Shown piece after piece: positions 1 to 19,974 of a stretch of DNA of 33,162 nt. The translations under genes were made by a program, and so were the position numbers. Positions within the stretch are counted from its first letter, which is position 1. Every line of letters begins with the position of its first letter. The stretch is from a virus: positions 1-33,162 of IMG/VR virus record IMGVR_UViG_3300043449_000757; one strand, written 5' to 3'. Below the pieces are notes generated by a model that did not search any database, was not told the DNA's origin, and saw nothing but the letters and a program-made list of their open reading frames with translations.

Positions 1-117
1 GCTGACACGGGCAAAGTGCTTGACAGTGTCGAGCGCGAGAAAGACCCGGCTTTTGATTCTGGCGTGGCCGAACCTCCCCCGGACATTTTCGAGATCGACC
101 GTGGCGACGACACCTGA
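1..117 (+). CDS. C-terminal end of an unknown protein (partial)
   Basis: An open frame enters at the first base and stops at TGA 115-117. The 38 visible residues form a charged tail, rich in Asp and Glu, with a PPPDIFEIDRGDD ending. The reading frame overlaps the probable GTG start of the nuclease gene by 17 bases, a common arrangement for co-transcribed phage genes. No domain can be recognised in so short a tail. The next gene is a VRR-NUC nuclease, which in other phages often follows helicase genes, but nothing in these residues shows a helicase. The start lies outside the window. Confidence 0.5.
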   Translation, partial: ADTGKVLDSVEREKDPAFDSGVAEPPPDIFEIDRGDDT

Positions 118-502
118 GGCGCGATTCTCTGCACGTGTGCGGGATGGCTTGAAAGGTGTTGGCTGCGACATTGAGCGAATCGAAAACCGCGTGAACCTTG
201 GCGTGTCCGACATGCTGGTGGGCGTGCTCGATTGCTTTGTCACGGTGGAATTAAAGGTTGTCTCCCGTGGCTTGAAGGTGACATTGCGACCGCACCAAAT
301 TGCTTTTTTGACTCGGCATGCGCTGATGGGGCGGCCCTGCTTTGTGCTTGTTTTGAATGTCGACCGAATATTGCTCTACCATGGCCGTGATGCGGTTGCC
401 CTTGCTGCCGATGGCTTGCGGCTGCCGCCGATGGCGGAGTGGAAATCCCGGGGCATGGACTGGCTGACCCTGAGGGAATATCTATCGGGGCGGCTTAGTT
501 GA
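101..502 (+). CDS. VRR-NUC-type PD-(D/E)XK nuclease
   Basis: This is a 133-residue protein if started at GTG 101. It has the compact VRR-NUC / Holliday-resolvase-like nuclease pattern: a conserved Asp in GVSDMLV, the E-x-K pair in VTVELKVV, and the downstream Gln in LRPHQIAFL, followed by a hydrophobic strand (CFVLVLNV). These are the residues that bind the catalytic metal in PD-(D/E)XK enzymes, so DNA cleavage of branched or replicating DNA is the likely activity. The frame is open upstream to TTG 20, but that stretch overlaps the preceding gene and has no nuclease similarity, so GTG 101 is preferred. The length is typical of phage VRR-NUC proteins. The in vivo substrate is unknown. Confidence 0.8.
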   Translation: MATTPEARFSARVRDGLKGVGCDIERIENRVNLGVSDMLVGVLDCFVTVELKVVSRGLKVTLRPHQIAFLTRHALMGRPCFVLVLNVDRILLYHGRDAVALAADGLRLPPMAEWKSRGMDWLTLREYLSGRLS

Positions 503-544
503 TCGAAAGAAACAATTGGACAATTTGCCCGGCTTTGGCAAAAT
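501..544 (+). promoter_or_regulatory. Sigma70-like promoter P1 with A-rich upstream block
   Basis: An A-rich block GATCGAAAGAAACAA (501-515) is followed by TTGGAC (516-521), a 17-base spacer and CAAAAT (539-544). It begins right at the stop of the nuclease gene. The same block and a similar -35 box recur before later genes at 1605, 3001, 3528 and 3866, which makes a functional promoter much more likely than the hexamers alone would. Confidence 0.6.
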
Positions 545-550
545 CAGAGC

Positions 551-586
551 TGCTGAAATAATTCAGCAAACAGAAAGGATAGATTC
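551..586 (+). promoter_or_regulatory. Leader hairpin plus AGAAAGGATAG ribosome-binding leader
   Basis: A 7-bp inverted repeat TGCTGAA / TTCAGCA (551-557, 562-568) lies between the -10 box and the shared leader AGAAAGGATAG (572-582), which ends four bases before ATG 587. The AGGA core is a good Shine-Dalgarno match at normal spacing. Confidence 0.6.
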
Positions 587-820
587 ATGAAAAAACCGGT
601 TTGTGTTTATTGGGCGCATTCTCGCCGTGAGGATGCCTCGAAAATATTTCGACTGAAACGTGAGGCGTTACAGTGGGGGCGCGATTATTTCGACGGGCTT
701 TTTATCGTTGAACCGATCAATAAAGCCAAGCTATCGGAGCGGCTGGATTATTTAAAAAATCAATTTGGCATTGTGCCGGAGCTGGCCTATACTGGCCGCT
801 CACAAATCAAGAAAGGATAG
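587..820 (+). CDS. Small phage protein, unknown function
   Basis: This is a 77-residue soluble protein that I do not recognise. The N-terminal part has a beta-type start (CVYWAHSRREDASKIFRLKREAL), followed by YFDGLFIVEPINKAKLSERLDYLKNQFG and a basic tail. It starts at ATG 587 four bases after the shared leader. Its last codons, AAA GGA TAG, are themselves the ribosome-binding leader of the next gene, so the leader's TAG is the stop codon of this protein. That geometry implies translational coupling with the downstream gene, which has no promoter block of its own. Confidence 0.75.
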   Translation: MKKPVCVYWAHSRREDASKIFRLKREALQWGRDYFDGLFIVEPINKAKLSERLDYLKNQFGIVPELAYTGRSQIKKG

Positions 821-824
821 AGTC
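810..824 (+). promoter_or_regulatory. AGAAAGGATAG leader embedded in the end of the upstream gene
   Basis: The 11-base leader (810-820) overlaps the last three codons of the 77-residue gene and sits four bases before ATG 825. It decides the start of the next gene at 825 rather than at the farther upstream in-frame alternative near 765. Confidence 0.7.
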
Positions 825-1526
825 ATGCTGAAAACCGTTGCAATTTCTGCCAACAAAAAAACCGGCCCCATCGCAGTCACTTATCGCGCGGGTGAACATG
901 AGACCTATGGCACGTGCCCGCGCACGTGTGCGCTACATCCGAAAAGTGACACCGGCACCGACCATATCGACGCGGATTATTTGGCCGCTGTATATGACGC
1001 GGTCCCGCGCCGTGGTGTTGCATGGGCTTATTCGCACTTTCCCGCTGAGGCGCTGCCGACACCGGCACCGGGTAAAACGACAATTAACGCGAGCTGCGAC
1101 ACTATCGCGGACGCGGTGCGCACTGTAGAGCTGGGCCGTCCCGCTGTATATGCTGCCCCGGTGGACACTGCCGAGAGCTGGCCGCGCAAAATACACGGCG
1201 TGACATTTGCACGCTGCCCCGCTGAGCTGGCCGAATCATTCACTTGCGCGGACTGTGGCAACGGTTCCCCGTTGTGCGCACGTGGTGAACGGGACTTTGT
1301 TGTTGTATTTGTTGCCCATGGCACCGGAAAAAAACGAGTAGGCACCGACGCGGCGGGTGGGTGTTATGCAGCCAGCGGCCCGACGGCTATTCAGTGGCAC
1401 GGTACGCGCAAAACCGGACATGCGAACGACGCGCAAACCGTGCGCGATTTTGCCCGCTCGCTGCCGGTGGGCTCGATGCTGCGGCACCATATCGCGGGCG
1501 ACATTGGGCGCGAGGTGGCCGCATGA
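825..1526 (+). CDS. Cysteine-rich gp88 / DUF7227-like phage protein, apparently permuted
   Basis: This is a 233-residue protein starting at ATG 825. The N-terminus has TGPIAVTYRAG followed by TCPRTC, as at the front of phage gp88/DUF7227-type proteins. A long middle part follows (GVAWAYSHFP, TINASCDTIADAV, FARCPAELAESFTCADCGNGSPLC, VVFVAHGTGKKR). The last 55 or so residues carry GGCYAASGPTAIQWHG and SLPVGSMLRHHIAGDIG. As I remember the family, the GCYA...AGD block lies directly after the first CPxxC and before the middle part, so here it seems to have moved to the C-terminus. The paired cysteines suggest metal or Fe-S binding, and the biochemical role is unknown. The family assignment rests on remembered motifs. 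Confidence 0.65.
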   Translation: MLKTVAISANKKTGPIAVTYRAGEHETYGTCPRTCALHPKSDTGTDHIDADYLAAVYDAVPRRGVAWAYSHFPAEALPTPAPGKTTINASCDTIADAVRTVELGRPAVYAAPVDTAESWPRKIHGVTFARCPAELAESFTCADCGNGSPLCARGERDFVVVFVAHGTGKKRVGTDAAGGCYAASGPTAIQWHGTRKTGHANDAQTVRDFARSLPVGSMLRHHIAGDIGREVAA

Positions 1527-1588
1527 TATTAATCGGCGCGGTTTTACTCTGGCTTTTTATTGGGTGGCTGCTCGATAGATATGGCTAA
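1523..1588 (+). CDS. 21-residue membrane micro-ORF
   Basis: ATG 1523 overlaps the TGA of the upstream gene (ATGA), the classic geometry for translational coupling. The 21 codons encode MILIGAVLLWLFIGWLLDRYG. This is one hydrophobic segment long enough to cross a membrane, ending in a short DRYG tail. Single-pass micropeptides of this kind occur in phages as holin-like or membrane-modifying products, but no function can be assigned. It may be a chance ORF, although the overlap and the clean hydrophobic composition argue for a real product. Confidence 0.45.
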   Translation: MILIGAVLLWLFIGWLLDRYG

Positions 1589-1604
1589 TTGAAGGCCCCG
1601 AATC

Positions 1605-1648
1605 GATCGAAATAATTCAATTGACCGGTGCGGACAATAGACTAGAAT
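1605..1648 (+). promoter_or_regulatory. Sigma70-like promoter P3
   Basis: The block GATCGAAATAATTCAA (1605-1620) is followed by TTGACC (1621-1626), a 16-base spacer and TAGAAT (1643-1648). The block matches those at 501, 3001, 3528 and 3866. Confidence 0.65.
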
Positions 1649-1655
1649 TCAAACC

Positions 1656-1697
1656 ATCGATGACCGGGCGGTTATCGATTCAACTCAGAAAGGATAG
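1656..1697 (+). promoter_or_regulatory. Leader hairpin plus AGAAAGGATAG leader
   Basis: A 10-bp stem with one G-T wobble, ATCGATGACC / GGTTATCGAT with a GGGC loop (1656-1679), lies 7 bases before AGAAAGGATAG (1687-1697). The start codon follows at 1702. The hairpin is close enough to affect ribosome access. Confidence 0.55.
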
Positions 1698-1701
1698 CAA
1701 C

Positions 1702-2658
1702 ATGGCACACATGATCGACACAACAACTGGCACCGCTGCAATGGCATACGCGGGCAAAACCCCATGGCACGGCCTCGGCCAAACCCTGAGCGCGGATGCG
1801 TCAATTGAGACGTGGACACGTGAGGCGGGTTTAGCGTATAGCGTGCTTGAATCCCCCGTACTGTTCCGCACTGCTGCGGCCACTGAGCCCGAATTATTCA
1901 AGGGGCGCAAAGTGTTACACCGTAGCGACACCGGCGCACCTTTGGCCGTGGTATCGGACGGTTACCACGTAGTGCAGCCCGCCGAGGTTATGGGCTTTTT
2001 TGATAATTTGGTCAAGCTGGGCGGCTTTCAAATGGAAACAGCGGGCGCGCTCAGTTACGGGCGGCGCGTGTGGGCGCTGGCATCGGTAGGCGCTGGCGCG
2101 GACATTGTCGAGGGGGACACCGTCAAGCCTTATTTACTGCTTGGCACCTCATACGATGGCACCATGGCCACAGTGGCGAAATTCACCACGGTTCGCGTGG
2201 TATGCAATAACACCATCACGGCGGCGCTAGGTGACAATACTGCCTCGGTTCGTGTGCTGCACAGTGAGCGGTTCGACGCGGACGCGGTGCGATTAGAGCT
2301 GGGCATTGTGGCCAACAACTGGGAGCGCTTTTTAGTTGAATCGCGCAAGCTGGCGGGCGAGCCCATGGGCGCGGATGAGGCGGACGCGTTTGTATCGGAG
2401 CTGCTCAAGCCTTATCACACTGGCAAAATCGACATCAGCGAATCACGTGCTTATAAGCGAATCATTCAATTATTCGATGGCGCGGCCATTGGTTCGGACA
2501 TTGGCGGCGTGACTGGCACGCGCTGGGGGATGCTCAACGCGGTGACTGAATTAGTCGATCATGAGCGAGGCCGCAGCGACAATACGCGCCTCGAATCGGC
2601 ATGGTTTGGCACCGGCGCAGCGATTAAAAACCGAGCTTTGGAATTGCTCGCGGCTTAA
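1702..2658 (+). CDS. DUF932 / TIGR03299 phage-plasmid protein
   Basis: This is a 318-residue protein. The N-terminus MAHMIDTTTGTAAMAYAG followed by KTPWHGLGQTL is the signature of the DUF932 (TIGR03299, phage/plasmid-like) family. Further family-like blocks are VLHRSDTGAPLAVVSDGYHVVQPAEVMGFFDNL, a YLLLGTSYDGT core, and TTVRVVCNNTI. The near-300-residue length is normal. The family is widespread in phages and plasmids and has no established biochemical role. The start at ATG 1702 follows the shared leader AGAAAGGATAG by four bases. An upstream in-frame TTG at 1621 is rejected because it is the -35 box of the promoter. Confidence 0.88.
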   Translation: MAHMIDTTTGTAAMAYAGKTPWHGLGQTLSADASIETWTREAGLAYSVLESPVLFRTAAATEPELFKGRKVLHRSDTGAPLAVVSDGYHVVQPAEVMGFFDNLVKLGGFQMETAGALSYGRRVWALASVGAGADIVEGDTVKPYLLLGTSYDGTMATVAKFTTVRVVCNNTITAALGDNTASVRVLHSERFDADAVRLELGIVANNWERFLVESRKLAGEPMGADEADAFVSELLKPYHTGKIDISESRAYKRIIQLFDGAAIGSDIGGVTGTRWGMLNAVTELVDHERGRSDNTRLESAWFGTGAAIKNRALELLAA

Positions 2659-2686
2659 CTAATCGGCTTTTTTGCACGCTATCGAG

Positions 2687-2717
2687 GGGGATCGGTCAAA
2701 TTAATTGATCGATCCCC
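2687..2717 (+). terminator. Hairpin after the DUF932 gene, possible weak terminator
   Basis: GGGGATCG (2687-2694) pairs with CGATCCCC (2710-2717), and TCAA / TTGA extends the stem inward. Only a short TGTTAATTT follows, so termination would be weak. An RNA-processing or stabilising role is equally possible. Confidence 0.4.
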
Positions 2718-2761
2718 TGTTAATTTGCCCAGCGTAAACCAGTCCCCGAGCCTCGGCGCTT

Positions 2762-2924
2762 GCACCGCGTGAAACGTGGCGCGGTGCGTGGAGCGGGGCG
2801 CGTGATTCGCGCCCCGTGTTGCCCGTGGCCTTGGCCACGGTTCGCGCACCGGCGGCAGCCGGTGCGCGGTTGCTGGCGCTTTGCCCTTTGCCATTGCTTC
2901 GCGGTTCGCGCTGCGCGAACCGCG
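2762..2924 (+). ncRNA. Array of five perfect GC-rich hairpins (candidate structured RNA)
   Basis: Five back-to-back inverted repeats have no mismatches. They are GCACCGCG/CGCGGTGC (2762-2769, 2780-2787); CGGGGCGCG/CGCGCCCCG (2794-2802, 2808-2816); CCGTGGCC/GGCCACGG (2823-2830, 2833-2840), which forms a CUUG-type tight loop; 11 bp CGCGCACCGGC/GCCGGTGCGCG (2843-2853, 2858-2868); and 11 bp CGCGGTTCGCG/CGCGAACCGCG (2900-2910, 2914-2924). The last is followed by a T-rich tract. No protein reading is convincing. I see no strong promoter just upstream, so it may be the 3' end of the DUF932 transcript, a separate RNA, or a structured DNA site. Confidence 0.5.
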
Positions 2925-2936
2925 TTTGTTTTTTCC
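2900..2936 (+). terminator. Strong intrinsic terminator ending the hairpin array
   Basis: An 11-bp perfect GC-rich stem with a CTG loop (2900-2924) is followed directly by TTTGTTTTTT (2925-2934). This is the textbook layout of a Rho-independent terminator. Confidence 0.8.
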
Positions 2937-2940
2937 CTAA

Positions 2941-2970
2941 TTGGTGGCGGCGGGGGCGGGTGGGCTCGCC
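2941..2970. repeat. G-rich element, copy A
   Basis: This 30-base G-rich stretch (core GGCGGGGGCGGGTGGG) matches 4945-4974 at 27 of 30 positions by eye. Its several G-runs could form a quadruplex in DNA or RNA. It starts a few bases after the terminator U-tract. Confidence 0.7.
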
Positions 2971-3000
2971 GTGGTAAGAATCTATTGCTGGCGCTTTGTC

Positions 3001-3044
3001 GATAGAAACAATTCATTAGACACGGGCGCTGGCGCTGGCACAAT
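3001..3044 (+). promoter_or_regulatory. Sigma70-like promoter P4
   Basis: The block GATAGAAACAATTCA (3001-3015) is followed by TTAGAC (3016-3021), a 17-base spacer and CACAAT (3039-3044). The block and -35 box are identical to those at 3866-3886. Confidence 0.55.
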
Positions 3045-3071
3045 TGAGGCCTCAACATTCAGAAAGGATAG
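3044..3071 (+). promoter_or_regulatory. Leader palindrome plus AGAAAGGATAG leader
   Basis: A 12-base palindrome TTGAGGCCTCAA (3044-3055) begins at the end of the -10 box and precedes AGAAAGGATAG (3061-3071), four bases before ATG 3076. Confidence 0.5.
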
Positions 3072-3075
3072 AGAT

Positions 3076-3507
3076 ATGGGACTCGATATGTATTTAAGCG
3101 CTAAGCGCTATTTGTGGAGCGAGGAACGCGAAGGCGTGAAGGTTTCCGGCGTTGATATTCCCGCTCCGTTGGAATTGTGCGAGGTTCGCTGCCGCGCTGC
3201 CTACTGGCGCAAAGCAAATCAGATACACGGCTGGTTTGTCAAAAACGTGCAGGATGGTGAAGACGATTGTCAGCCTTATGAAGTAGGGCGCGAGGACTTG
3301 CAGGCGCTGGTAGATTTGTGCCGCAAAGTGCTTGACAATCGCAAGCTGGCCAAAAAGCTTTTGCCCCCAAATGAGGGTTTTTTCTTTGGCGGGTATGAAT
3401 ATGGCGACTACTATTTTTCTGAGCTCCAACGCACTGCGGACGAGCTGGCCAAATTACTCGAGGCCGTGGACGATAGCTGGACATTCGAGTATCAATCGAG
3501 CTGGTAG
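3076..3507 (+). CDS. Conserved phage protein (MGLDMYL family), unknown function
   Basis: This is a 143-residue protein starting MGLDMYLSAKRYLW. Other conserved-looking blocks are AYWRKANQIHGWFVKNVQDGEDDCQPYEV, LPPNEGFFFGGYEYGDYYFSEL and the C-terminal FEYQSSW. I recognise this pattern from uncharacterised phage proteins in which MGLDMYL, YWRKAN-IH and GFFFG-YYY blocks co-occur. No enzymatic residues are assigned. The aromatic-rich, cysteine-containing, soluble character suggests a small globular protein made early to act on a host target, but this is only inference. The start is fixed by the shared leader four bases upstream. The open frame extends back to 2941, which is rejected because it would cross the promoter and the G-rich repeat. 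Confidence 0.75.
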   Translation: MGLDMYLSAKRYLWSEEREGVKVSGVDIPAPLELCEVRCRAAYWRKANQIHGWFVKNVQDGEDDCQPYEVGREDLQALVDLCRKVLDNRKLAKKLLPPNEGFFFGGYEYGDYYFSELQRTADELAKLLEAVDDSWTFEYQSSW

Positions 3508-3508
3508 T

Positions 3509-3532
3509 CTATCGGGGCGCGAGCCCCGATAG
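3509..3532 (+). promoter_or_regulatory. Upstream hairpin CTATCGGGGC with GCGA loop
   Basis: A 10-bp perfect stem, CTATCGGGGC / GCCCCGATAG, closes a GCGA (GNRA-type) tetraloop. It starts two bases after the stop codon. Its 3' arm runs into the A-rich block of promoter P5. There is no T-tract, so classic termination is unlikely. A sister copy at 3847-3870 preserves pairing with a different base pair. Confidence 0.7.
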
Positions 3533-3571
3533 AAACAAACCATTGGACGCGGGCACTGGAGCGCCTATACT
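3528..3571 (+). promoter_or_regulatory. Sigma70-like promoter P5
   Basis: The block GATAGAAACAAACCA (3528-3542) is followed by TTGGAC (3543-3548), a 17-base spacer and TATACT (3566-3571). This is the best match of the set. The -10 box lies in the loop of the 8-bp inverted repeat GGAGCGCC / GGCGCTCC (3558-3580). Confidence 0.75.
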
Positions 3572-3585
3572 GGGCGCTCCACAAC

Positions 3586-3600
3586 AGAAAGGATAGAGCG
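3586..3600 (+). promoter_or_regulatory. AGAAAGGATAG ribosome-binding leader
   Basis: An exact copy of the 11-base leader at 3586-3596, followed by AGCG and ATG 3601. Confidence 0.7.
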
Positions 3601-3846
3601 ATGACAATCACCAAACAATATTGGTTCCTAAGAATCGGCGATGATTACCTCGATGACGCGCTCTGCTATCGAACAAAGCAGGCAGCGATTAATAAATATC
3701 AGCGAGTCGCGCAAGAGCTGGCGCGGTATGAGCAGCGAATCGAAGCTTCGCTGCATCGCGCTTCACGGCGCGAGACCCTCGACGAATATCCTGATTGTTT
3801 GTTGTCGCTCGGTCCACGTGGCGGCGTAAGAATCGAGGGCTGCTGA
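3601..3846 (+). CDS. Small conserved phage protein, unknown function
   Basis: This is an 81-residue protein starting MTITKQYWFLRIGDDY. It has a central charged helix (AAINKYQRVAQELARYEQRIEASLH) and a C-terminal YPDCLLSLGPRGGVRIEGC. The SLGPRGGVR ending is one I associate with short uncharacterised phage proteins. No catalytic motif or membrane segment is visible. The gene sits alone between two promoter cassettes, so it is probably transcribed as its own unit as well as by read-through. Confidence 0.72.
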   Translation: MTITKQYWFLRIGDDYLDDALCYRTKQAAINKYQRVAQELARYEQRIEASLHRASRRETLDEYPDCLLSLGPRGGVRIEGC

Positions 3847-3870
3847 CTATCGGAGCTTACGCTCCGATAG
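3847..3870 (+). promoter_or_regulatory. Upstream hairpin CTATCGGAGC with TTAC loop
   Basis: A 10-bp perfect stem, CTATCGGAGC / GCTCCGATAG, with the loop TTAC. It is the sister of 3509-3532. The stem differs at one pair (G-C there, A-T here) with both sides changed, and the loop is unrelated. The arm runs into the A-rich block of promoter P6. Confidence 0.7.
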
Positions 3871-3910
3871 AAACAATTCATTAGACGCGAACCACAGGCC
3901 GTGATGTAAT
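3866..3910 (+). promoter_or_regulatory. Sigma70-like promoter P6
   Basis: The block GATAGAAACAATTCA (3866-3880) is followed by TTAGAC (3881-3886) and, with an 18-base spacer, TGTAAT (3905-3910). The -10 box lies within the inverted repeat CCGTGA / TCACGG (3899-3904, 3915-3920). Confidence 0.65.
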
Positions 3911-3939
3911 TCATTCACGGTCTGATTGAGGCCGCACTC

Positions 3940-3954
3940 AGAAAGGATAGAGAA
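3940..3954 (+). promoter_or_regulatory. AGAAAGGATAG ribosome-binding leader
   Basis: An exact copy of the leader at 3940-3950, followed by AGAA and ATG 3955. Confidence 0.7.
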
Positions 3955-4413
3955 ATGAAAAACCCTTTAGCTTGTTACCGTAACGACTTGTTCGGCAGCC
4001 GTGGCGTGGACGTGGCTGCTGCTCTCGAATACGTGGATCAGTTGGCAGCCGCCAGCAGCGACGCAGTGGCAGTGCAAACAGCAGCACGCGTGCTGCTCAA
4101 TACTGTACTGGGTGCCATGGATCAGGTGCTAAATGTCCAGAGCCCCGAGCGCTTAGCACTGATCGAGTTGATCGACGAACGGATCAAGGCCAACAGCAGC
4201 GACATCGACCAGCAGATCAGCGATTGGATGGACAACAATGTGGATCATGACCACCTGATCAGCGAATGGTTGTCCGATAACTTCGACGTGAATGACTACA
4301 ACGTCGACGACGTGGTGGACGATAAGATCAAGGAATGGGCATCGGACAATCTGGCCGATGAAGTGGAAGCAGTGATTAAAAATAGTTTGACATTCAACGT
4401 AATAGTCAATTAA
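3955..4413 (+). CDS. Acidic helical phage protein, unknown function
   Basis: This is a 152-residue protein. The N-terminal third (MKNPLACYRNDLFGSRGVDVAAALEYV) leads into an Ala-rich helix. The C-terminal half is strongly acidic, with repeated W-x-x-D/N-N/D patterns (SDWMDNNVDHDH, SEWLSDNFDVNDYN, KEWASDNLADE) spaced about 20-24 residues apart, so it looks like a short internal repeat. Such acidic proteins can mimic DNA or bind basic host proteins, but that is speculation without a homologue. The start is fixed by the leader. The last codons carry the next promoter. Confidence 0.7.
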   Translation: MKNPLACYRNDLFGSRGVDVAAALEYVDQLAAASSDAVAVQTAARVLLNTVLGAMDQVLNVQSPERLALIELIDERIKANSSDIDQQISDWMDNNVDHDHLISEWLSDNFDVNDYNVDDVVDDKIKEWASDNLADEVEAVIKNSLTFNVIVN

Positions 4414-4416
4414 AAT
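4387..4416 (+). promoter_or_regulatory. Consensus promoter P7 inside the end of the acidic-protein gene
   Basis: TTGACA (4387-4392), an 18-base spacer and TAAAAT (4411-4416). The -35 box and most of the spacer lie within the coding sequence of the acidic protein. The A-rich block seen at the other promoters is absent. Confidence 0.6.
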
Positions 4417-4420
4417 ACAA

Positions 4421-4466
4421 GCACTGGATCAGCCGATCCAGTGCAACCAACCTAGAAAGAATAGAG
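4421..4466 (+). promoter_or_regulatory. Leader hairpin plus variant AGAAAGAATAG leader
   Basis: A 10-bp perfect stem GCACTGGATC / GATCCAGTGC with an AGCC loop (4421-4444) is followed by AGAAAGAATAG (4454-4464), one base different from the other six leaders and only two bases before ATG 4467. The hairpin has no T-tract. Confidence 0.6.
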
Positions 4467-4757
4467 ATGAAAACATTAAAGACAATCAACATCAACGGTA
4501 ATAACTTCGCGCTGCCTGAGGGAATGTCCGGTAAAGACATTCAAGCCTTGGCAGGGTTCCTCTGCACACTGACCGAGGTGGGCAGAGAATACGATTACGA
4601 CACCGGTGAATCCATTTACTTTGAATCACTGACCGGTGTCAGTGTCCAAGTGTCCGAGCTGCGGGTCACTACTAAAGAGGACGCACGCAAACAAGCCACT
4701 GAATCACGCGAACGCTACCAGCAGCGGCGCGAGATGGAGAAGTCCGAGCAGGCCTGA
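4467..4757 (+). CDS. Small phage protein, unknown function
   Basis: This is a 96-residue protein. The N-terminus is beta-like (MKTLKTININGNNFALPEGMSGKDIQALAGFL) and contains NxNGxxFxLP, followed by a Tyr/Asp-rich stretch (REYDYDTGESIYF). It ends in a highly charged helix (RKQATESRERYQQRREMEKSEQA). No family is recognised with confidence. It is the last gene before the terminator cluster and the terminase. A small-terminase role can be considered from position only, and nothing in the residues supports it. Confidence 0.7.
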   Translation: MKTLKTININGNNFALPEGMSGKDIQALAGFLCTLTEVGREYDYDTGESIYFESLTGVSVQVSELRVTTKEDARKQATESRERYQQRREMEKSEQA

Positions 4758-4765
4758 TCCCCCCA

Positions 4766-4827
4766 ACTGGTCGGCAGCGCCGACCAGTCCCGACCCGAGA
4801 AGCCCAGACTGTACAGTCTGGGCTTCT
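4766..4827 (+). terminator. Tandem hairpins closing the accessory module
   Basis: ACTGGTCGGC / GCCGACCAGT (4766-4775, 4779-4788) is followed by a 30-base perfect palindrome (4798-4827) with 13-bp arms AGAAGCCCAGACT and a GTAC centre. A pyrimidine-rich TTACTTTCCCC follows. Being symmetrical, the palindrome could also act on the other strand or bind a dimeric protein. Confidence 0.65.
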
Positions 4828-4875
4828 TTACTTTCCCCTTTAGAATCAACAACTTACAGCATCATAGGGAAAGTT

Positions 4876-4903
4876 AATCAGCGCGGACGCGCTGATTGTT
4901 TTT
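4876..4903 (+). terminator. Intrinsic terminator
   Basis: AATCAGCGC / GCGCTGATT with a GGAC loop (4876-4897) is followed by GTTTTTATTTG. This is a clear Rho-independent layout. Confidence 0.75.
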
Positions 4904-4944
4904 ATTTGCTTGACAACTTTGATTTTCTATTATCCTTCCCACAA

Positions 4945-4974
4945 ATGGTGGTGGCGGGGGCGGGTGGGCACGCC
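4945..4974. repeat. G-rich element, copy B
   Basis: This matches 2941-2970 at about 27 of 30 positions, including the unbroken GGCGGGGGCGGGTGGG core. Like copy A it lies downstream of an intrinsic terminator and upstream of a promoter. Confidence 0.7.
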
Positions 4975-5113
4975 GGAACACCAGACTCAGAATCCCTCAG
5001 GGGGGAGGGCCACTTTAAGCCCCGTCAGCGCCAGCGGAAGACGTAGGCCAAGTTTTAGACAAACAAAAAGCTTTTGAAAACCTGACCCCTCCCCCACCCG
5101 GTCCCCCATAAAA

Positions 5114-5154
5114 CCACCCCCTTGTTTGGAAAAAGGCATGGGGTGGGGTATATT
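5114..5154 (+). promoter_or_regulatory. Promoter of the terminase/late genes with an overlapping inverted repeat
   Basis: TTGGAA (5126-5131), a 17-base spacer and TATATT (5149-5154). CCACCCC (5114-5120) and GGGGTGG (5140-5146) form an inverted repeat that brackets the -35 box and ends in the spacer, an operator-like placement. Confidence 0.6.
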
Positions 5155-5184
5155 TGCAAAAATTCAGAACCTGAAGGTCTGCCC

Positions 5185-6657
5185 GTGAATACCACGCAAC
5201 AAGAAGATATTGAAACCGAGCGCCTGCGCCTCGAGCTGCGACTCCAGCTACTGGAGGCACAAGAGAAAGCCACAACCAACTTCCTCGACTTCTGCAAATA
5301 CGTGTGGCCCGAGATGCTCGTTGGGGAACACCATAAGATCATTGCGGAAGCCTTTGACCGCGTCATTGCTGGTAAATGCAAGCGCCTGATGATTGCCATG
5401 CCACCACGGCACGGTAAGTCCCAGCTCGGCAGCTATCTGTTCCCGGCCTATGTCATGGGAAAAATCCCCGACAGCAAACTCATCGTTGGCTCGCACACCG
5501 CCGAACTTGCCCAACGCTTCGGTCGCATGATCCGTAACCTCGTTGACGAAGACAAGTACAAGGAACTCTTCCCCAGCATTGGCCTGTCCGCTGACTCCAA
5601 GGCTGCTGGCCGGTGGAACACGAAGGGTGGTGGTGAAGCGTTCTTCATCGGCAAGGGCGGTGCCATGACCGGACGCGGCGGCAACATCGTGATCCTTGAC
5701 GATATCTTGGATGAGCAGGACGCTTTGTCCGAGACTGCGATGGAGAACACGTGGGAGTGGTACACGTCTGGCCCCCGTCAACGCTTGCAGCCAAACGGCT
5801 CGATCATCGTCATCAACACACGCTGGAAGACTGACGACCTGAGTGGGCGCTTACTCAAGCAGCAGGGCCAACTTAAGTCCGATCAGTGGGAGGTGATCGA
5901 GTTCCCTGCCATCCTGCCCAGCGGCAAGCCCCTTTGGCCGGGATACTGGAGCCTTGACGAGTTAGAGAAGGTCAAGGTTTCCATCGGCATGAAGAAATGG
6001 AATGCCCAGTGGCAACAGGCCCCGACGAACGATGAGGGTGCCATACTGAAGCGCGAATGGTGGCGCAAGTGGAAGTCCGATGAACCACCTCCCTGTGAAT
6101 ACCTGATCCAGACGTACGACACGGCCTACAGCAAAAAGGAGAGTGCTGACTTTTCTGTGATCAGCACGTGGGGCGTGTTCTATCCCAATGCTGACTCTGG
6201 CCCGAACTTGATTTTGTTGAACGTCAAGAAGGGACGCTGGGATTTCCCTGAACTCAAGCGCATTGCCAAGGCCGAATACATGTACTGGAATCCTGACAAC
6301 GTCTTGATCGAAGCCAAGGCGACTGGCACGCCGCTCCAGCAGGAGTTGCGCAAGATTGGAATCCCCGTCACGATGTACAGCCCCGGCGGCAGAAGAACCG
6401 GGCAGGACAAGATCAGCCGGGCCAATGCGGTTGCTCCTTTGTTGGAGTCAGGCATGATCTGGTACCCTGAAGATATTGAGTGGGCGCAGGACATGGTGGA
6501 AGAATGCGCGGCGTTCCCCAACGGCGCACATGATGACCAAGTGGACTCAGCGGTCATGGCTTGGATGCGCTTTCGTCAGGGCAACTTCATTACCTTGGCG
6601 GACGACGATAACGAGGAACCTGAACCGGCCACGGACCAGCACGAATACTACGGTTGA
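5185..6657 (+). CDS. terL: Large terminase subunit (TerL)
   Basis: The DNA-packaging motor is 490 residues if started at GTG 5185. The ATPase domain shows Walker A MPPRHGKSQ (about residues 72-80), Walker B NIVILDD (167-173) and a coupling region near NTRWKTDDLSGRL. The C-terminal RNase H-like nuclease shows YDTAYSKKESADFS (D312), VLIEAKATG (E376) and a final HDDQVDS with paired Asp (450-451). The start follows GAAGGTCT and lies after the promoter at 5126-5154. A longer in-frame TTG start at 5122 is rejected because it precedes the promoter's -35 box. No recognisable small terminase gene is adjacent. Function and completeness are near certain. Confidence 0.96.
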   Translation: MNTTQQEDIETERLRLELRLQLLEAQEKATTNFLDFCKYVWPEMLVGEHHKIIAEAFDRVIAGKCKRLMIAMPPRHGKSQLGSYLFPAYVMGKIPDSKLIVGSHTAELAQRFGRMIRNLVDEDKYKELFPSIGLSADSKAAGRWNTKGGGEAFFIGKGGAMTGRGGNIVILDDILDEQDALSETAMENTWEWYTSGPRQRLQPNGSIIVINTRWKTDDLSGRLLKQQGQLKSDQWEVIEFPAILPSGKPLWPGYWSLDELEKVKVSIGMKKWNAQWQQAPTNDEGAILKREWWRKWKSDEPPPCEYLIQTYDTAYSKKESADFSVISTWGVFYPNADSGPNLILLNVKKGRWDFPELKRIAKAEYMYWNPDNVLIEAKATGTPLQQELRKIGIPVTMYSPGGRRTGQDKISRANAVAPLLESGMIWYPEDIEWAQDMVEECAAFPNGAHDDQVDSAVMAWMRFRQGNFITLADDDNEEPEPATDQHEYYG

Positions 6658-18722: not shown

Positions 18723-19558
18723 ACTACGCCCAACTCACTGCTGCGATTGAGGACTACACCGAGAACACGTTCACGGCGACAGAGCTTTCTATTTTTGTAA
18801 AGCAGGCCGAGCAACGCATCTACAACATGGTGCAGTTGGCCAATTTGCGTAAAAACCAGACTGGCACAATCACTTCAGGCAACAAGTATTTGTCGGCACC
18901 AAACGATTTCTTGTCGGTGTATTCCTTGGCCGTGTACACCTATGCCACCCCAACAGCTACTGGAACATCAGGGCAATTCACCATCGTTGTGAGCAGTGCA
19001 TCTGACATCGTGGTTGGCCAAATGGTCACGGGTTCTGGTATTGGCTCAGGTGCGCAAGTGGCGGAGATTAATGGCACCACGGTCACTCTGTCGGTGGCCA
19101 ACAGCAGCACTGTCTCTGGCACGATCGTGTTCCAAGGCGACTATTTGTATCTGTTGGACAAGGATGTCAACTTCATTCGTGAGGTCTACCCCAATCCCAC
19201 CAGCAAAGCTGAGCCAAAGTACTATGCCATCTTTGGACCACAGTCCACGGATGTGAACGAGTTGTCATTCATCCTTGGCCCCACGCCTGACCAGACTTAC
19301 AAGGCCGAGCTGCATTACTACTATTACCCAGAGTCCATTGTGGATGCCGGAACGTCTTGGCTGGGCGACAACTTTGATTCAGCCTTGCTGTATGGCTCGT
19401 TGGTCGAGGCATATACCTTCATGAAGGGTGAACAGGACATGATGGCTCTTTACGACACCAAGTACAAAGAGGCGATGGCGCTCTTGAAGAACTTGGGTGA
19501 CGGCAAACAACGGTCAGACACTTATCGTGATGGCCAAGTCAAGGTCAAGGTGCAGTAA
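18719..19558 (+). CDS. Tail adaptor-like protein with inserted beta domain
   Basis: This is a 279-residue protein. The helical N-terminus (YAQLTAAIEDYTENTFTATELSIFVKQAEQRIYNMVQLANLRK) and C-terminus (LYGSLVEAYTFMKGEQDMMALYDTKYKEAMALLKNLG) match adaptor (T7 gp11-like) proteins of podoviruses. Between residues about 75 and 140 an all-beta segment (GTSGQFTIVVSSASDIVVGQMV, ingTTVTLSVANSSTVSGT) interrupts the beta core. It looks like an inserted Ig-like or glycine/threonine domain, as the strand before it (LAVYTYATP) continues after it (DYLYLLDKDVNFIREVYP). The start overlaps the previous stop. Confidence 0.7.
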   Translation: MNYAQLTAAIEDYTENTFTATELSIFVKQAEQRIYNMVQLANLRKNQTGTITSGNKYLSAPNDFLSVYSLAVYTYATPTATGTSGQFTIVVSSASDIVVGQMVTGSGIGSGAQVAEINGTTVTLSVANSSTVSGTIVFQGDYLYLLDKDVNFIREVYPNPTSKAEPKYYAIFGPQSTDVNELSFILGPTPDQTYKAELHYYYYPESIVDAGTSWLGDNFDSALLYGSLVEAYTFMKGEQDMMALYDTKYKEAMALLKNLGDGKQRSDTYRDGQVKVKVQ

Positions 19559-19974
19559 TGATCACAGCAGGCCTCACAACCAGTTTTAAAAGGGAAGTCC
19601 TGTTAGGTATACATGACCTAGACACAGACGTTCTTAAGATTGCTCTGTACACAGCAGATGCCAATCTTGGCCCAGACACGACCGTGTACTCCGCCACTAA
19701 TGAGGTATCTGGCACAGGGTACACCGCAGGCGGCGAAGTGCTGCTGAACGTAATTGTCCAGCAGGGCAACGGTACGGGATATGCCACTTTTGACGATCCC
19801 TCATGGCCGGGCGCAAACTTCACAACCCGTGGTGCTTTGATCTACAACTACACCAAAGGCAACAAGTCTATTGGTGTGTTCAATTTCGGCACCGATCAAT
19901 CGATGACCAACCAAGGTTTCACCATTCAGTTACCAGCGGATAATCCGGAGACCGCTGTAATTCGGATCATTTAA
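19558..19974 (+). CDS. Beta-rich virion protein, paralogue A
   Basis: This is a 138-residue protein. LLGIHDLDTDVLKIALYTADANLGPDTTVYSATNEVSGTGYTAGGEVL is the core. GALIYNYTKGNKSIGVFNFGTDQSMTNQGFTIQLP forms the second half. The EVSGTGYTAGGE motif and the order of strands recur in the gene at 20190, so the two are paralogues. The family is common in podovirus tail regions and is probably a small virion or tail-surface protein. One base overlaps the preceding stop (TAATG). Confidence 0.68.
   Translation: MITAGLTTSFKREVLLGIHDLDTDVLKIALYTADANLGPDTTVYSATNEVSGTGYTAGGEVLLNVIVQQGNGTGYATFDDPSWPGANFTTRGALIYNYTKGNKSIGVFNFGTDQSMTNQGFTIQLPADNPETAVIRII

Follow-up and report, generated by a model that had tools for sequence, protein, structure and literature searches.

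In the T4-type phages, the early promoter stem-loop (PeSL) cassettes consist of an early promoter and a stem-loop, and the latter acts as a transcription terminator. The promoter and stem-loop are reported to be repeated between the small genes of variable regions and to be tied to gene shuffling (PMC4503421). Another type of repeated element, the start-associated sequence (SAS) with its extended form (ESAS), is known from the cluster K mycobacteriophages (PMC3203893) and the Microbacterium phages of cluster EF (PMC7302621), and has been treated in a later comparison (PMC11373665). The SAS follows the consensus GGGATAGGAGCCC, which is that of cluster K, or GGGAAAGGACCCC. The present work concerns the virus record IMGVR_UViG_3300043449_000757, a stretch of 33,162 bases referred to below as the window, which is probably a fragment of a larger genome. 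Upstream of the gene of the terminase large subunit at 5185, a block of small genes carries a repeated leader directly in front of the start codons. The leader is likely to be part of a modular expression unit, composed of a sigma70 promoter, a 5′ hairpin, the leader and the ATG, in which the leader is reused, exchanged and specific to the phage lineage. By analogy, the unit appears closest in working and layout to the SAS/ESAS of clusters K and EF and to the T4-type PeSL cassettes.

The leader AGAAAGGATAG is the most frequent 11-mer of the window. Six exact copies start at 572, 810, 1687, 3061, 3586 and 3940, all on the + strand, and a seventh copy with one change, AGAAAGAATAG, is located at 4454 (+). 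All seven lie within 572-4464, upstream of the terminase gene and each just 5′ of an ATG; the gap is 4 nt wherever the copy is exact and 2 nt at the variant. Against the six exact copies, dinucleotide shuffles give an expectation of 0.0067 for both strands, which supports the repeated 11-base leader that the initial annotation had described before these genes. The ordinary sites it had assigned to the downstream genes were also found: each of the 28 downstream starts inspected has at least 3 mismatches to the leader, and most have AAGG/AGGA/GGAG-type sites. The A-rich block GATAGAAACAATTCA, a further part of the proposed layout, has five matches with at most 3 mismatches, all correctly placed, where 0.89 are expected and none of 100 shuffles reaches five. 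Promoter-like sites within 1-5400 number 11 against 3.4 expected from shuffles, an approximately threefold excess.

Relatives of the window were collected with its DUF932 protein as the query (365 matches, 80 kept), and a second collection was made with the DUF932 protein of Phage DSL-LC04. Among named genomes, the latter comes closest (TerL 63.5%, DUF932 69%, DUF7227 68%), followed by Pelagibacter phages of the HTVC023P/027P type. DSL-LC04 is an assembly from a lake metagenome, for which the authors proposed the family 'Dishuiviridae' (PMC10611076). The first 15 kb of the window gave no DNA-level match to any phage record, and no near-identical named phage was found. The leader-bearing phages are an uncultivated freshwater group related to DSL-LC04, and their host probably belongs to the Pseudomonadota. 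DUF932 in bacterial genomes, considered as a route to a prophage or to the host identity, gave a single 45% match in a Mucilaginibacter metagenome-assembled genome, which is uninformative.

The leader count took in the window, the DUF932 loci of the relatives, six long relatives and DSL-LC04. In the window and relatives, 368 of 370 exact leaders are located 5′ of an open reading frame (ORF) starting with ATG. When one mismatch is allowed and DSL-LC04 is excluded, the leader defines 339 unique cassettes in 55 protein families unrelated by blastp. Most copies in the long relatives cluster in one region, but there are exceptions; three of these genomes, for instance, have a leader gene lying 11-14 kb upstream. 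To the left of the block, relatives have a divergent leader-bearing gene of 72 or 82 aa on the opposite strand (for example L009 1040 and L074 4576, both −), the position of which in the window would fall beyond the left end. These features resemble the SAS/ESAS: a short asymmetric motif occurs in many copies of one orientation (here seven, + strand, 2-4 nt from the ATG), is more strongly conserved than a ribosome-binding site, and precedes only non-structural genes of unrelated families (here 572-4464 before the terminase, and the 55 families of the relatives). A sigma70/SigA-like promoter in the upstream repeat region (PMC11373665), an inverted repeat often found upstream, and a motif differing between phage clusters are further common points. 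In contrast, the consensus GGGATAGGAGCCC is not found here, where the motif is AGAAAGGATAG, and the phages are unrelated as far as tested, with a host that is here probably one of the Pseudomonadota.

The leader lies at ribosome-binding distance and holds AAGGA, and the DSL-LC04-type leader holds AGGAG. It could thus be a strong, reused ribosome-binding site in which only the Shine-Dalgarno pairing is selected. The orthologous starts, however, do not follow such a pattern. Among 79 DUF932 starts, located through the protein rather than the leader, 47 have an exact copy, and the core base G7 is changed 16 times while G2, A3, G6, A8, T9 and A10 are never changed, so that this core base is more variable than the non-pairing flanks. 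The DUF7227 starts agree (n = 71, G7 changed 15 times). With a seed of AAAGGA only, the AG and TAG flanks are present at 265 of 357 sites; this seed and the DUF932 start test are independent of the full leader. The duplex with the anti-Shine-Dalgarno sequence has an energy of −5.4 kcal/mol for leader A, the version found in the window, and −4.9 for leader B of a sister lineage, values matched by 38% and 45% of sequences with the same letters in shuffled order; for AAAGAA, a frequent variant, the duplex is weak (−0.9 kcal/mol). Moreover, leader B does not have a normal core, and the downstream genes of the window do without the leader. With one sequence per unrelated family, the information drops to 0.5 bit directly 5′ of leader A and tails off two or three bases downstream of it, the leader positions themselves being fixed by the seed in this count. 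An optimised Shine-Dalgarno site is rejected by the letter shuffles and the orthologous starts, and selection on the pairing only is an unlikely explanation of the leader.

Unlike the SAS/ESAS, the leader here differs between sister lineages even at orthologous genes, with the versions occupying the same DUF932 start sites. Leader B (AGAAAGCGAGAA, AGAAAG[CTA]GAGAA) is found 5′ of an ATG-ORF in 256 of 259 cases and in 24 families. Leader C, CATACAGGAGA, which DSL-LC04 has instead of AGAAAGGATAG, is in this position in 51 of 53 cases and 12 families. Among 156 contigs, 86 carry only A, 55 only B and 11 only C, one has B and C, and three have none. Mapping the leader types onto the DUF932 tree takes 5 changes, against 45.7 with shuffled labels, a figure weakened by near-copies and the quick tree method. 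The leader type of 589 of 591 leader genes matches that of the DUF932 gene in their own contig, a count from which the DUF932 genes were left out, as was a single gene whose contig has an untypable DUF932 leader. Eight gene families span at least two lineages and, with one exception, carry the local leader. Compared by eye, A (AGAAAG-GATA-GAGAA) and B (AGAAAG-C-GAGAA) have the ends AGAAAG and GAGAA in common and diverge in the middle, so a short change that spread to all genes may have turned one into the other. A private start code for each lineage is a tentative extension of these observations. In such a code the factor reading the leader, probably encoded by the phage, would have changed together with every leader, and genes coming from a sister lineage would need the local leader for expression.

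The mobility of the cassettes is visible in 104 pairs of unrelated families whose sequences are 75% or more identical in the 100 nt 5′ of the leader. It is also visible in nine types of insertion polymorphism, of the form promoter-gene B versus promoter-gene C-leader-gene B. In each type exactly one small gene and one leader are present or absent, through gain or loss. The clearest example is the pair of contigs L016 and L027, in which the 80 nt upstream are 100% and the 150 nt downstream 99% identical, and which differ by 177 bp corresponding to one 52-aa gene and one leader. Genes inserted behind another gene keep the leader. These pairs bear out the modularity proposed in the initial annotation. 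The genes were also thought to arrive with their own control unit, whereas the added unit is often a gene with its leader behind a pre-existing promoter, resulting in a short operon. With one leader shared by all genes, recombination between its copies would allow a small gene to insert and be expressed at once behind the existing promoter.

The insertion junctions within the leader, as well as the single leader version per contig, are also what would be seen if the leader were mainly a recombination handle, one version per genome being spread by gene conversion. Yet the conservation between unrelated cassettes extends over only about 11-14 nt, which is short for gene conversion, and the copies are almost always directly 5′ of an ATG, a position needless for a pure handle. 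We regard a predominant role as a handle as improbable.

The promoter and hairpin were analysed in 151 cassettes remaining after redundancy reduction, 70 of which had a clear promoter by a strict test. Perfect stems of at least 6 bp occur at 0.74 per 100 nt in the 151 cassettes and at 0.20 in dinucleotide shuffles. In the 70 clear-promoter cassettes the stems peak at +20 from the −10 box (28 versus 0.55 in shuffles; 31 versus 0.78 with looser stem criteria). Their 5′ arm mostly starts 4-9 nt 3′ of the −10, where transcription is expected to start, and thus they would be 5′-terminal hairpins of the mRNA. Stems are further enriched in the promoter spacer (14 versus 1.75 expected in two main bins; with looser stems, 19 versus about 3 in the bins −20 to −10, some straddling the −10) and at −50 (7 versus 0.60). 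A helix alignment was made of 24 regions picked for a hairpin-sized promoter-leader distance and a visible stem, a selection which favours structure; 85% of its cells are paired, with both-side changes at all ten pairs. Doubly changed cells number 56 versus 17 when shuffled, and slid versions pair at 26-36%. RNAalifold independently recovers the same helix, and Rfam gave no match to a known RNA family.

The enrichment of spacer repeats, of which some straddle the −10, and the asymmetric, constant leader would suit sites in the DNA, such as operators or anchors, that a phage regulator recognises, a role proposed for the repeats of the ESAS in cluster K. The leader, however, is retained at internal genes which have no promoter of their own. 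The repeats vary in sequence between cassettes, and covariation in the 5′ hairpin extends to G-U pairs, which is a poor fit to one protein-binding sequence. The ESAS, in contrast, is a 17-bp repeat of conserved sequence, and the changes in it give no support to RNA pairing; the hairpin described here has no fixed sequence and covaries. Recognition at the level of DNA is accordingly given little credence as the explanation of the leader and repeats. Palindromic promoter spacers of unrelated sequence, for example at 524-542 in the window and in cassettes of L043, L064 and G002, are far above the shuffle expectation. To our knowledge, such sequence-free palindromic spacers have no known function.

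A terminator function of the cassette hairpins is ruled out, as the + strand has no T run. No terminator-like + strand hit was found at these hairpins, and strong-stem + hits are present at 2686-2718, 2900-2924 and 4875-4898. In this the stem-loops differ from those of the PeSL cassettes, with which they share the combination with a promoter and the position between small genes that are shuffled. The main hairpin is here located 3′ of the promoter, at the 5′ end of the mRNA, and the start leader is part of the unit. The genome is not that of a T4-type myovirus, its nearest relatives being DSL-LC04 and HTVC023P/027P. In the N4-type promoters, small hairpins serve a giant virion RNA polymerase. 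The cassettes here have ordinary −35/−10 boxes, and the largest ORF of the window, which is probably a fragment, has 905 aa.

In the mechanism favoured here, that of a modular expression unit, a host-type sigma70 promoter would start the mRNA and its first bases would fold into the hairpin. An unpaired linker of 3-10 nt, the purine-rich leader of 13-14 nt (AGAAAGGATAGAG) and the ATG would follow. The hairpin may shield the 5′ end of the short mRNA and keep the start region open. The sequences suggest that the leader works in the mRNA at the translation start, with a modest Shine-Dalgarno core. Its conservation beyond the core is probably due to recognition by a reader that differs between lineages, which could be the host ribosome context or a phage factor. 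Early expression of the cassette genes is plausible given the host-type promoters and the non-structural block. Several points weigh against this mechanism. The strict promoter test is passed by only 70 of the 151 nonredundant cassettes, so that many leader genes would have at best a weak promoter to themselves, and there is no clear 5′ hairpin at 3061 and 3586, so that a hairpin in every cassette is rejected. The families were collected with the leader itself as the seed, some leaders in the count of unrelated families could mark mis-called starts, and the change counts come from related sequences and are not independent events.

In the individual cassettes of the window, the promoters and leaders agree with the common layout described initially, while the inverted repeat is not always 3′ of the −10. 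All features given below are on the + strand, except for the inverted repeats outside the 5′ hairpins, which have no strand. The first cassette has an A-rich block at 505..519 (3 mismatches to GATAGAAACAATTCA) and the promoter TTGGAC-17-CAAAAT at 516..544 (alternative register TGGACA-16-CAAAAT), with an inverted repeat, TTTGCC..GGCAAA, within its spacer (524..542). The 5′-terminal hairpin TGCTGAA-ATAA-TTCAGCA (551..568; −8.2 kcal/mol, z −2.8) and the leader (572..582) precede the ATG at 587 of a 77-aa gene (587..820) without a family match in Pfam or PHROGs. The next gene, a 233-aa DUF7227 protein (825..1526, E 1.5e-31), had been assigned the leader alone. It has its own promoter inside the end of the 587 ORF, TTGGCA (765-770) -17- TATACT (788-793), at 765..793, which is among the best promoter matches. 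Its leader (810..820) is indeed written into the neighbour, the final bases being the stop codon of the 587 ORF. The 318-aa DUF932 gene (1702..2658, E 2.7e-55) is preceded by an A-rich block (1605..1619, 2 mismatches), the promoter TTGACC-16-TAGAAT (1621..1648), a 5′-terminal hairpin of 10 bp including one G-U (1656..1679, −14.1 kcal/mol) and the leader (1687..1697).

The 143-aa gene at 3076..3507 (phrog_7971, unknown function) has an exact A-rich block (3001..3015), the promoter TTAGAC-17-CACAAT (3016..3044) and the leader (3061..3071), with a 10-bp palindrome without a loop in place of a hairpin. Upstream of the 81-aa gene (3601..3846, no family match) lie the inverted repeat TCTATCGGGGC-GCGA-GCCCCGATAGA (3508..3533), an A-rich block (3528..3542, 2 mismatches), the promoter TTGGAC-17-TATACT (3543..3571) and the leader (3586..3596). 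A strong 11-bp inverted repeat (3557..3581) straddles the −10 here, the box being in and around the loop. The 152-aa gene (3955..4413, no family match) follows the inverted repeat CTATCGGAGC-TTAC-GCTCCGATAG (3847..3870), an exact A-rich block (3866..3880), the promoter TTAGAC-18-TGTAAT (3881..3910) and the leader (3940..3950). A repeat straddling the −10 (3895..3924) is overlapped in its 3′ arm by a small 6-bp 5′ hairpin (3918-3934). In both upstream repeats, of the form CTATCGG..CCGATAG, the 3′ arm doubles as the start of the local A-rich block. The last cassette was confirmed as annotated, with the promoter TTGACA-18-TAAAAT (4387..4416), a 10-bp 5′-terminal hairpin with the tetraloop AGCC (4421..4444; −19 kcal/mol, z −6.6) and the variant leader (4454..4464) before a 96-aa gene (4467..4757) without a family match at the curated cut-off. 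The Pfam and PHROGs matches of the small proteins of the block are uninformative as to function.

A perfect palindrome, AAGCCCAGACTGTACAGTCTGGGCTT, followed by CTTTACTTT, lies at 4800-4825 and is a possible terminator ending the block ahead of the terminase gene. A G-rich element (GGTGGCGGCGGGGGCGGGTGGGC and close) is repeated at 2941-2972 and 4945-4976; in the relatives it is common 5′ of the gene after DUF932 and may be a G-quadruplex, packaging or recombination site. At the left edge of the window (2-502), the encoded protein matches phage helicase/endonuclease families (phrog_2165, phrog_93).

A similar arrangement is present in the Pelagibacter phage HTVC027P (L332), where inspection by eye found TAGAAAGGTAT before the ATG of two genes, together with TTGACA and a small inverted repeat (19205-19285 and 19757-19837), this leader being another sequence. 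In a term search, the DSL-LC04 paper (PMC10611076) gave no hit for promoter or ribosome, and a limited literature search found no prior description of the leader unit. The SAS/ESAS differ in consensus and repeat type and the PeSL cassettes in terminator function and phage type, and the unit is therefore filed under neither. The role of the SAS-type sequences has been open since 2011. The present group combines numerous contigs and clean gain/loss pairs with three versions of the leader on orthologous genes and with shared families that carry the local version. This opens two questions to testing: what it is that recognises the sequence surrounding a ribosome-binding site, and by what route a phage couples a new small gene to a control unit that already works.

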